The notes beneath the pieces are model-generated. The model made no database searches. It had not been told where the DNA came from and saw nothing but the letters and a program-made list of their open reading frames with translations. This document shows, piece by piece, positions 27,463 to 53,765 of a stretch of 64,000 nt of DNA. Position 1 is the stretch's first letter. The number at the start of each line of letters is the position of its first letter. The stretch lies in the NCBI RefSeq assembly GCF_002797975.1, contig NZ_PGET01000001.1, positions 682,001 to 746,000 on the forward strand. Reading direction: 5' to 3'. Source of the stretch: [Clostridium] celerecrescens 18A. GTDB lineage: Bacteria > Bacillota > Clostridia > Lachnospirales > Lachnospiraceae. A program made the translations under genes and the position numbers.

Positions 27463-27500
27463 CAAATTTACATATACACAGAGATACTGTGACTTATCAT

Positions 27501-27606
27501 CTTCTTTTATCCAGACTATACTGTCGGCTTCGGAATTACACCGAATCATGCCTTGCGGCTCGTGGGCTTTACCACCGGTAGGGAATCGAACCCTGCCCTG
27601 AAGAAA
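27501..27606 (-). promoter_or_regulatory. FMN riboswitch (RFN element)
   Basis: Read on the minus strand the conserved RFN blocks appear in order: CAGGGCAGGGTTCGATTCCC, ACCGGTGGTAAAGCCC, CGAGCCGCAAGGC, ATTCGGTGTAATTCCG and AAGCCGACAGTATAGTCTGG, closing with AAGAAG. It senses FMN and here precedes an intrinsic terminator and the riboflavin genes, so FMN should switch the operon off by premature termination. Confidence 0.95.
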
Positions 27607-27622
27607 TTATTCAATTAAAATT

Positions 27623-51112: not shown

Positions 51113-51946
51113 TTATTTTTCCAGCAGTATAGAAATCGTTATGCTATCTGTACGATAAGTGCTGCCTGCAACATCTCCAAATACTTCGCATACCTTAAAA
51201 CCCGCATCGGCTGCTTCTTTCATCAGCATTTCTTTGGTAAAACAGGTATTCCATAAATAGTAAGAGATAGCCCCTGTATCAAAAACAATAGAAGTTTGTT
51301 CTAATGTTGCATTCTCTGGATACCGATAGCATCCGTTAAATGCAATATAGTTCTCTTTGTGCCAAAACCCCCCATCCTGACAAATTTCCCATGTTTGTTT
51401 TTCTTCAAAATCCTTATACTTAGCCATTGAAAAAACATCCAATAAGAACCTTCCCCCAGGCTTTAGATGACGGTATACCGCAGTCATTACCATTTGCCTG
51501 TCTGCTGTTGAAAGCGCACCGTAGTCACAATAGATCATTGTTGAAAAATCATAATTACGATTCAAATCCATAGTTAAATAATTCTGATACAAGTATTGAA
51601 TATCTAAATTTCTTTTTTTCGCAGACTCTATGGCATAGTTTATAGACCGTTTGGAAAAATCAATTCCCGTTACCTGATAGCCCATTTGTGCATATCTTTC
51701 CGCATATATTCCTGGCCCGCAGCCAATGTCAAGAAGTTGCCTGTACTTTGATGGTGGTGCAATCTCTTTTATCCAGGTGGCAGATTTATCTATAAACGCT
51801 AACTTTCTGCTTGCACCTTCAAAGCCAGGATCCAGATGGGCTTTGAGCATTTGCTTGGATATATGCTCATCATCCCAAAATGGAACTGTTGTTTTCGTGT
51901 ACAGTGGCGGTCTTTCTAACAATGGTATTAAGCTTTTAAACATCAT
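51113..51946 (-). CDS. class I SAM-dependent methyltransferase, attenuator-controlled
   Basis: About 277 residues. The SAM site is YRQLLDIGCGPGIYAERYAQ with acidic GYQVTGIDFSKRSINYA, post-I DFSTMIYCDYGALS and GGRFLLDVFS. The target domain (EEKQTWEICQDGGFWHKENY) is unrecognised. This group is seen as stand-alone small-molecule methyltransferase in Clostridia and Bacilli; the substrate is unknown. The start at 51946 is chosen for AAAGGAG just upstream. A 5' leader with short frames and a terminator (51979-52230) suggests induction by a translation-inhibiting compound, so it could be a resistance factor (inference). No rRNA target is shown. Confidence 0.75.
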   Translation of the reverse strand: MMFKSLIPLLERPPLYTKTTVPFWDDEHISKQMLKAHLDPGFEGASRKLAFIDKSATWIKEIAPPSKYRQLLDIGCGPGIYAERYAQMGYQVTGIDFSKRSINYAIESAKKRNLDIQYLYQNYLTMDLNRNYDFSTMIYCDYGALSTADRQMVMTAVYRHLKPGGRFLLDVFSMAKYKDFEEKQTWEICQDGGFWHKENYIAFNGCYRYPENATLEQTSIVFDTGAISYYLWNTCFTKEMLMKEAADAGFKVCEVFGDVAGSTYRTDSITISILLEK

Positions 51947-51967
51947 GTTTTCTCCTTTCAAAATGAA

Positions 51968-52000
51968 CAAAAGAAAAAGCCGTAGATTTTACTCTACGAC
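51968..52000 (-). terminator. attenuator terminator in the methyltransferase leader
   Basis: On the minus strand GTCGTAGA (52000-51993), loop GTAAAA, TCTACGGC (51986-51979) with one wobble, followed by TTTTTCTTTT, about 22 bases before the ribosome binding site. Its place between promoter and gene implies readthrough control. Confidence 0.75.
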
Positions 52001-52072
52001 TAATCTTCCTAAGATAAAATAGAAGTTAAGAGTAAAATAAAATCAAACATCAGGCATAAAAACTAAACTGTG

Positions 52073-52173
52073 TTAACAGCTTGCTCTTAAACCTATTGAA
52101 TTGATTTTATCTGCTCTTTTCCAGTGATATCCATGCCATCGTTTATGTGGCATCAGATATGCCGGACTTCCAT
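52073..52173 (-). promoter_or_regulatory. leader mini-ORFs with alternative hairpins
   Basis: On the minus strand the leader encodes MEVRHI (52173-52153, preceded by AAAAGG) whose stop overlaps the start of a second 26-residue frame (52153-52073, MPHKRWHGYHWKRADK...). The segment 52148-52153 can pair either with 52159-52163 (GGCAT/ATGCC) or with 52133-52138 (ATGCCA/TGGCAT). These pairings exclude each other, as in erm-type leaders where ribosome stalling shifts the fold. Confidence 0.55.
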
Positions 52174-52201
52174 CACCTTTTCTTTTAAATTTTATGTTTT
52201 T

Positions 52202-52230
52202 ATTTTATAGTACTTAACTTACTTTGTCAA
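52202..52230 (-). promoter_or_regulatory. methyltransferase promoter
   Basis: On the minus strand TTGACA (52230-52225), 17-bp spacer, TAAAAT (52207-52202). The start of transcription would be about 250 bases before the methyltransferase, leaving room for the attenuator leader. Confidence 0.75.
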
Positions 52231-52407: not shown

Positions 52408-52950
52408 ATGACAAAGACAAAGATAGCAAATATCCCTTTTGGACCGTATGTTACTGTTTTAGCAGGGGCTTCTGTAAAGGGAAAGCCCAATTATGCCACC
52501 ATTGGAGCGTATGGGGTTGTAAGTCAAAAGCCTGTACTTTATATTTCTCTGAAAAATACCCATTACACAACAGCCGGAGTTATAGAAAACGGATACTTCT
52601 CTGTAAACATTCCCTCTTCCGAGGATATAGAAAAAACGGATTATTGCGGGACTGCAACGGGAAATAAAACAGATAAATCAAACGTTTTTGAGTCATTTTA
52701 CGATGATGCAGGTAATGCACCCATGATAGAAGAGTGCCCGGTTAATTATCTTTGCAAAGTAATTCAGACAATTCCAATTTTTGATTTTACAATGTTTCTT
52801 GGGGAAATTGTTGCGGCATATGCGAATGAGGAATGTCTGGAAAATGGTAAACCAAATGCTTTAAAGGTCAATCCTACCATCATGATGGATTCTGGGTATT
52901 TTGATATCAAGGACAGAGTAGGTTCCATATTTAGGATAAATCTTTCATAA
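52408..52950 (+). CDS. flavin reductase family protein
   Basis: 180 residues, FMN-binding split barrel: GPYVTVLAGASVKGKPNYAT, VVSQKPVLYISLKNTHYT, GYFSVNIPSSEDIEKTDYCG and the C-terminal YFDIKDRVGSIFRI. The Cys in DYCGTATG equals the flavoredoxin position. Second protein of this type here (see 19306-19842). GATAGGAG precedes ATG 52408. Likely reduces FMN or carries electrons to an oxygen-protecting or nitro-reducing partner. Confidence 0.85.
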   Translation: MTKTKIANIPFGPYVTVLAGASVKGKPNYATIGAYGVVSQKPVLYISLKNTHYTTAGVIENGYFSVNIPSSEDIEKTDYCGTATGNKTDKSNVFESFYDDAGNAPMIEECPVNYLCKVIQTIPIFDFTMFLGEIVAAYANEECLENGKPNALKVNPTIMMDSGYFDIKDRVGSIFRINLS

Positions 52951-52986: not shown

Positions 52987-53009
52987 GGTCTTTGCAAGGG
53001 GGTGAAAAG

Positions 53010-53765
53010 ATGGAATACACCATCAACAAGCTGGCGAAATTGGCGGGGGTCAGTACAAGAACACTGAGGTACTACGATGAGTTGGGATTGCTTTCACCCG
53101 CCCGGGTCAGTTCCAATGGATACCGGGTTTACGGACAAAAGGAGATCGATCGGCTGCAGCAAATCCTTTTTTACCGTGAACTGGGCGTATCGCTGGAAGA
53201 AATCCGAAATATTCTTGCTTCAAATGACTTTGACGGACTATCGGCGTTGGAGAGCCATTTGACTGCCCTGCTTGCCAGGCGAGCACAATTGAATTTGCTG
53301 GTCGCCAATGTCGAAAAGACCATTAAGACCATGAAAGGAGAAATGATAATGAGTGACCAGGAGAAGTTTGAAGGCTTTCTTCAAAAGCTGGTGGACCAAA
53401 ACGAGCGTCAATATGGAGAGGAAGTCCGGAAAAAATACGGGGATGAGCGCATAAACCGCTCTAACACCAAGGTTTTAAATATGAGCAAGGAACAATTCAC
53501 TGAATTGGAAAGGCTGACGGAAGAGTTGAACGAAACATTAAAAGCGGCCTATGAGCAAGGAGACCCAGCCAGTGAACTGGCGCAAAAAGCCTGTGAGCTG
53601 CATAAAAAATGGCTCTGCTTTTATTGGAACGATTACAGCAAAGAAGCACATAAAGGCGTGACGCAGATGTATGTGGAAGATCCACGTTTTACTGCTTATT
53701 ACGATAAAATAGCGCCCGGCTGTGCAGCGTTTCTGCGTGACGCGGTAGAGATATTCTGCAAATAA
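53010..53765 (+). CDS. MerR-family regulator with TipAS antibiotic-recognition domain
   Basis: 251 residues: MerR HTH (YTINKLAKLAGVSTRTLRYY, SNGYRVYGQKEIDRL), a coiled coil to about 110 and the TipAS domain (about 130-250: DERINRSNTKVLNMSKEQF, WNDYSKEAHKGVTQMYVED). TipAS domains bind cyclic thiopeptides and other large hydrophobic drugs. ATG 53010 follows AAGGGGGTG. No efflux gene directly follows, only a terminator, so the target may be elsewhere or the product may act by sequestering drug. Confidence 0.9.
   Translation: MEYTINKLAKLAGVSTRTLRYYDELGLLSPARVSSNGYRVYGQKEIDRLQQILFYRELGVSLEEIRNILASNDFDGLSALESHLTALLARRAQLNLLVANVEKTIKTMKGEMIMSDQEKFEGFLQKLVDQNERQYGEEVRKKYGDERINRSNTKVLNMSKEQFTELERLTEELNETLKAAYEQGDPASELAQKACELHKKWLCFYWNDYSKEAHKGVTQMYVEDPRFTAYYDKIAPGCAAFLRDAVEIFCK

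Follow-up and report, generated by a model that had tools for sequence, protein, structure and literature searches.

Riboswitches with terminator platforms have a conserved, structured 5' domain that is followed by P1, an antiterminator, and a terminator; they show covariation and have their own promoter. The inducible leaders of the ribosome-drug resistance genes vmlR and tlrB, as the cited passages describe them, act via a ribosome stalled on a leader peptide (PMC9226507, PMC6851288). The ~200-nt 5' leader of vmlR in Bacillus subtilis contains the uORF MIN, the anti-antiterminator SL-1, an antiterminator, and a terminator, and both the start codon and the Shine-Dalgarno (SD) sequence of the uORF are required (PMC9226507). 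The tlrB (yxjB) gene of B. subtilis encodes RlmA-II, the 23S rRNA G748 methyltransferase, and has a 9-codon leader peptide with an RYR/RXR motif; the cited passages identify no antiterminator (PMC6851288). In the literature that we searched, the only structured RNA found before a class I SAM methyltransferase is the smtA motif ("Soda Lake RNA"), which is described as >350 nt long and restricted to Thioalkalivibrio (PMC11109978).

The window, to which all coordinates refer, is a stretch of 64,000 nucleotides from [Clostridium] celerecrescens 18A (contig NZ_PGET01000001.1, positions 682,001 to 746,000); the nearest relative among named records is Lacrimispora celerecrescens (90% protein identity). 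On its minus strand, a promoter is followed by a leader of ~240 nt and then by the gene for a 277-amino-acid class I SAM-dependent methyltransferase (MTase; 51113 to 51946), identified by domain and family matches. The leader consists, in order, of an SD-like tract, a hairpin that we call SL1, a long hairpin (P1), and an intrinsic terminator. It resembles the vmlR leader in having an SD tract before the first hairpin and an anti-antiterminator/antiterminator/terminator logic (PMC9226507), but it differs in that 12 of the 31 leaders lack the start codon, whereas the sequence and the structure of the hairpin are both conserved. As in tlrB (PMC6851288), a methyltransferase gene lies behind an intrinsic terminator in an arrangement for attenuation; unlike tlrB, this leader has a covarying antiterminator and no conserved peptide, and its MTase matches the RlmA model just weakly (23.9 bits, with a cut-off of 303). 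With riboswitches and orphan candidates it shares a structured 5' domain, P1, antiterminator, terminator, covariation, and its own promoter, whereas its candidate sensor is a single hairpin, a pseudoknot is unsupported, and the one MTase family found behind 30 of the 31 leaders gives little hint of a ligand. Like the smtA motif, it is a structured RNA that precedes the gene of a class I SAM methyltransferase; we rejected that motif as the identity of the leader, since the size and host range given for it (PMC11109978) mark it as a different RNA.

The promoter is a strong one of the sigma-A type (TTGACA-17-TAAAAT, 52230 to 52202, minus strand) with 11 of 12 matches, and the terminator (51968 to 52001) has a stem at 52001 to 51978 and a T-rich tail, followed by the MTase SD sequence AAAGGAG at 51958 to 51952. 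Both had been proposed in the original prediction, and both are borne out. Simple scans over 2 kb found 7 promoter-like sites versus 6.1 in shuffled sequence and 3 terminator-like sites versus 1.5. These scans barely exceed chance, so it is position and conservation that support the two elements. In 27 of 31 leaders, a promoter site matching at 9 or more of 12 positions ends 14 to 22 nt upstream of the SL1 segment; the weakest best scores are those of L091 and L103 (7 and 8 of 12, respectively), and in L104 and L105 the top-scoring site lies 42 to 46 nt upstream. The window leader folds at -77 kcal/mol, compared with a shuffle mean of -43.4 (z = -7.7; 0 of 200 shuffles as low). Rfam searches at gathering score gave no match at the leader in the window or in 20 further leader loci, and two tRNAs elsewhere in L086 and L089; under permissive settings, the window leader produced four matches, all far below gathering scores. 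The sole match at gathering score within the window is an FMN riboswitch at 27495 to 27609 (minus strand).

SL1 occupies 52120 to 52166 (minus strand) and has a conserved base, TCCGG/CTGGA. This most conserved element of the leader, a hairpin rather than an ORF, had been missed in the original prediction. On its 5' side lies the purine-rich, SD-like flank GAAAAGGTGATGGAAG (52167 to 52182), which is seen in alignments A1 and A2 and by eye in the other leaders, and on its 3' edge lies the conserved stretch GGAAAAGAG (52114 to 52122), identified by alignment and folds. Homologues of the MTase were collected from 25 genus genomes and, in the genome collection, from 39 loci, of which two gave weak, partial matches; some of these homologues have the leader in common. 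A covariance model of SL1 built from nine sequences (R1) returned 29 rows from 70 sources, representing 27 leaders, with some places counted twice, and two matches that we took to be due to chance (L062 and L023, E = 3.3 and 4.0). R1 found SL1 in 13 of the 25 genus genomes, once per genome and always upstream of the MTase (three of these MTases being broken), in 8 of 396 family genomes, and in 4 of 41 relatives of G190, two of which were already known. Of 392 class-level genomes, a second model (R2) matched 7, with five new copies before an MTase, the copy in the window, and one chance match inside a coding region (L106, E = 0.04). The tallies from scans of ~400 genomes are lower bounds, reflecting strict filters and about a dozen scored candidates per genome. 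Similarity searches of plasmids added leaders in Monoglobus (81%) and Enterococcus gallinarum (72%), and a pattern scan of viral contigs added L090. SL1 is present in Lacrimispora, Blautia, Monoglobus, E. gallinarum, and other Clostridia.

In a 30-row alignment of SL1 (29 distinct rows), 14 of 17 pairs are changed on both sides, with 55 such cells; 92.2% of cells hold standard pairs, compared with 30.3 to 41.5% for slid partners, and 0 of 500 shuffles equalled any of five measures. This alignment was fitted to the structure and is hence biased towards it; a nine-row MAFFT alignment has 94.8% of cells paired and 7 of 17 pairs changed on both sides. As in a riboswitch, a conserved, covarying, aptamer-like fold is found ahead of an expression platform. 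The apical loop is lost in L104. In the window, the loop (52139 to 52144, minus strand) reads AAACGA versus AATCGG in close relatives, with the loss of one apical pair; judging from these letters, the window copy of SL1 may be slightly degenerate. A pseudoknot in which UGAU of the 5' flank pairs with AUCR of the SL1 loop seemed convincing on inspection of several clades, as well as in a score that tolerates G-U pairs, in which the own-clade score was not consistently best. It was rejected because a strict swap test without G-U pairs gave P = 0.61 and L104 has no loop. For nine leaders compared with rRNA of their own genomes, the similarity of SL1 to 23S rRNA was not above that of shuffles; against 16S rRNA the top score was that of L016 (15.0, with a shuffle maximum of 16.0), and the other leaders scored lower.

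When 31 leaders were folded, with near-identical copies omitted, the folds contained SL1 and P1 with an inner hairpin, and nearly all contained a terminator. In the window, the P1 5' arm is AAGAGCAGATAAAATCAA (~52101 to 52118), placed by folds and a swap test; the inner hairpin that caps P1 lies at 52047 to 52100 in the folds; and the P1 3' arm, TTGATTTTATTTTACTCTT (~52028 to 52046), is also the antiterminator strand, according to the swap test and a folding model. The terminator arm and loop, AGAGTAAAATC, are similar to the P1 5' arm, and the P1 3' arm can pair either with the P1 5' arm or with the terminator 5' arm and loop, but not with both. An automatic scan detected the terminator in 24 of 26 leaders; of the two missed, L004 has an imperfect homologous stem and L089 has a terminator that was identified by eye from its fold. 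Terminators are also visible in the folds of L101 to L105.

The predicted energy of P1 is below that of shuffles in all 24 leaders examined (P at most 0.05). The antiterminator energy is unremarkable against simple shuffles in 19 of the 24 (P = 0.12 to 0.65) and is low solely in L015, L087, L090, L088, and L094. Because the leader sequences are AU-rich, we introduced a swap test over 23 lineages (L089 excluded), in which the longest Watson-Crick helix formed with a lineage's own partner is compared with those formed with the partners of other lineages. In 20 of 23 lineages, the own P1 partner did at least as well as the average swap (P = 0.0004), and the own antiterminator partner did so in 18 of 23 (0 of 5,000). 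The antiterminator claim rests on this test and on the divergent clades; antiterminators with altered letters reach 11 bp in L088 and 12 bp in L103, and the E. gallinarum leader (L091) has no good antiterminator. The earlier proposal that segments of this leader pair in two exclusive ways is thereby confirmed. The folds also contain an outer helix (P0) between the 5' flank and a pyrimidine-rich segment before the terminator (52002 to 52027), which we regard as tentative, given weak swap tests (strict Watson-Crick, P = 0.027; duplex energy, P = 0.18). With a terminator between promoter and gene and a covarying, mutually exclusive antiterminator, the leader is, as far as comparative sequence evidence goes, a real transcription attenuator.

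How SL1 might be connected to this switch is indicated by the divergent clades. A counterpart of GGAAAAGAG also lies within the P1 5' arm in L015, L087, L090, L088, and L089. By eye in predicted folds, the SL1 3' strand doubles as the base of P1 in L015, L087, L090, and L088 and as the base of the terminator stem itself in L089, so that SL1 and termination are predicted to be mutually exclusive in these five leaders. SL1 shares no positions with P1 in the main clade, and the coupling between them there is therefore extrapolated from the divergent clades. In a model of the nascent RNA, the mean antiterminator pairing of 22 leaders was 0.07 when free, 0.16 when the first 40 nt were masked, and 0.52 when the P1 5' arm was masked. 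With the latter masked, 5 of the 22 leaders (L083, L084, L086, L093, and L094) still formed little antiterminator (0.02 to 0.21), and the free nascent value was already 0.60 in L090 and 0.35 in L088. In a full-equilibrium model the terminator dominates even with P1 masked (mean, 0.92), which means that antitermination would need to be kinetic.

The leader precedes a member of the MTase family in 30 of 31 cases. The exception is L089 (253 to 1278, minus strand), in which it precedes a nucleotidyltransferase-like gene encoding a 341-amino-acid protein with subthreshold nucleotidyltransferase and DUF4037 matches; this protein was found in 1 of 298 family genomes. The MTase has generic Pfam methyltransferase domains. 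Its best NCBIfam match is CpaM (51.5 bits; cut-off, 180), and among the best 25 of 37 NCBIfam families, none reached its cut-off and neither Erm nor Cfr was included, in agreement with the earlier statement that the enzyme is not one of these two. Among solved sequences, the closest is 9rfr (E = 6.7e-20), which its depositors call a ubiquinone biosynthesis O-methyltransferase. In L016 (G003), L017 (G024), and L018 (G019), the MTase is broken by stops, frame breaks, or a missing part, and the leader hairpin is intact. The fetched stretch of L084 covers merely 115 MTase residues, and in L105 ~660 nt separate leader and MTase. On a tree of 54 MTase homologues, 28 of them with the leader (broken and partial copies and three near-copies omitted), the leader label changes 7 times versus 18.3 times in shuffles, a count in which divergent leaders were possibly overlooked, and carriers occur on both sides of the midpoint root. 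The few changes and the distribution about the root indicate that the leader tends to move along with the enzyme, and from this tree their pairing may be old.

Several of the surrounding genes are of kinds associated with drugs or mobility. In L094/L097 (L097, 4053 to 6035, minus strand), the leader is followed by a nitroreductase gene, the MTase gene, and a gene for a standalone TipAS drug-binding domain, and a MerR-TipAS gene is located near the MTase in both the window and L090. In the window, this MerR regulator with a TipAS antibiotic-recognition domain (52992 to 53765, plus strand) lies beyond a divergent flavin reductase gene (52408 to 52950, plus strand). In Monoglobus, leader and MTase lie between a recombinase gene and a gene for a cysteine-rich KTR protein. 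KTR genes match 468 plasmid records, and in the three records inspected, among 12 listed of the 468, the gene before KTR is tet(M), tet(S), or tet(O). Near-identical MTase copies occur in different gut Clostridia (L035 to L041 and L067), some adjoining a recombinase-like ORF; L040 retains the terminator part of the leader alone, and L041 retains nothing of it. Circumstantially, the mobile contexts make a drug-related resistance or detoxification role of the MTase plausible. The suggestion in the original prediction of a possible new resistance enzyme holds to this extent.

Comparison gives the parts of the proposed switch, namely, SL1, P1, the antiterminator pairing, and the terminators. On balance, we lean towards an attenuator in which a conserved, noncoding RNA fold made up of the SD-like 5' flank, SL1, and the GGAAA 3' of SL1 is the sensor, with no leader peptide. 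By default, P1 would form first and hide the antiterminator strand, and transcription would stop. An inducer, which might be a small molecule, a protein, or another factor, would hold the sensor such that the 3' edge of SL1 (GGAAA...) is kept out of P1; the freed P1 3' arm would then pair with the terminator 5' arm, and the MTase would be transcribed. This direction of control (sensor held, P1 base lost, gene on) is derived from the competition between SL1 and termination in the divergent clades, and the folding model agrees with it in part. The probable function of the MTase is to detoxify a small molecule or to protect the target of that molecule.

The original prediction had instead read the leader as a leader-peptide attenuator with two overlapping mini-ORFs, controlled like drug-inducible genes of the erm, vmlR, and lmo0919 types. 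In a classic attenuator of the erm or TlrB/yxjB type, a ribosome would stall at a peptide motif in one of these mini-ORFs. Both exist as strings in the window: MEVRHI (7 codons including the stop, 52173 to 52153) and a 26-codon frame, MPHKRWHGYHWKRADKINSIGLRASC (52073 to 52153, with its ATG at 52153). However, the ATG of MEVRHI overlaps its own SD-like tract (GGTG-ATG) with no spacer, and the 26-codon frame has no SD and is, by eye, broken or altered in relatives. An ATG at the mini-ORF position is absent from 12 of 31 leaders. The other 19 have an ORF of 1 to 26 codons (median, 9, compared with 8 and 13 for the same stretch in other frames), which lies in one of two frames with respect to the hairpin and encodes differing peptides (M, MEVRHI, MKSGTSDVT, MKVRRIRCHIIGGVDMTGKE, and others), among which we found no conserved peptide or arrest motif. 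In contrast, TlrB leaders are described as keeping position, length, and the RXR motif (PMC6851288). With a ribosome on MEVRHI, the 3' edge of that ribosome would come no closer than ~24 nt to the P1 5' arm, the strand whose masking antitermination requires. Frames of 20 to 26 codons in six relatives (L032, L083, L084, L092, L034, and L094) do reach that arm, which speaks for peptide control, but 13 of the 19 ORFs leave the ribosome short of P1. Proper SD spacing, a conserved peptide, and masking of the P1 strand are thus all missing from the comparison as a whole, and we consider a classic leader-peptide attenuator highly improbable. Across orthologous leaders, pairing and terminators are kept and the mini-ORF is not, which argues that the peptide is dispensable. 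What survives of the earlier account is a transcription attenuator before a methyltransferase, with its promoter, reading frames, terminator, and exclusive pairing; the relevance of the mini-ORFs, and with it leader-peptide control, does not survive.

A ribosome could also act independently of any peptide, as in vmlR, if stalling of the ribosome by a drug at the SD-like site before SL1, or its absence from that site, altered the folding of SL1 and hence termination. The SD-like tract seen by eye ahead of SL1 in the aligned leaders, with an adjoining ATG in 19 of 31, leaves room for such involvement. Moreover, in vmlR an SD lies right before SL-1, and the uORF has three codons and a loosely constrained sequence (PMC9226507); since such a uORF is functional there, peptide-independent ribosome sensing stays the main rival. 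In a sister clade (L013, L014, L049, and L122), the MTase gene is preceded by a genuine-looking uORF, MNF...RVTI(I/F), that has a good SD and is accompanied by a hairpin of the GGAGGG...CCCTCC type, which makes ribosome sensing conceivable within the MTase family; this hairpin pattern occurs in 2 of 25 genus genomes, a search of plasmids for the uORF gave short, partial matches only, and we conclude that it is a separate regulatory solution. Against ribosome sensing at SL1 stand the 12 leaders that have no ATG, the ORFs of L086 and L103, which consist of an ATG followed directly by a stop, and the 13 ORFs that would not carry a ribosome to P1, three of them (L091, L102, and L089) falling short by just 2 to 3 nt. 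In addition, a ribosome sitting on the 5' flank would presumably favor termination in those leaders in which SL1 and P1, or SL1 and the terminator, overlap. We regard this explanation as rather unlikely. A protein, possibly the MTase itself, might instead bind SL1 and set termination, by autoregulation or as an RNA-binding regulator. A conserved hairpin with a conserved loop and base is a typical protein site, SL1 fits this description, and 30 of 31 leaders are paired with the MTase family. However, the leader in L089 precedes an unrelated gene, and the nine SL1 sequences are not 23S-like beyond shuffles, with L016 alone approaching the shuffle maximum for 16S; this explanation seems to us quite unlikely.

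For the noncoding sensor that we favor, neither Rfam nor full-text literature searches for leaders of this type, which covered few subscription papers and preprints, returned a description of the SL1 motif. Transcription attenuators are a known kind of regulator, and as far as we searched, the SL1 sensor belongs to no described family, so the leader may sense its signal in a manner hitherto undescribed. A more specific possibility, which we put forward tentatively and consider rather unlikely, is that SL1 and its flanks form a new class of RNA sensor for a toxic small molecule, possibly an antibiotic, or for translation stress, directly switching on a mobile resistance or detoxification MTase without a translated leader peptide. 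If an RNA hairpin is indeed the sensor for this horizontally moving enzyme, it would represent a different route to inducible resistance, and its inducer would provide a handle on the role of the uncharacterized MTase. If the ribosome is involved after all, the design would be peptide independent, and lineages with and without the start codon could be compared directly.
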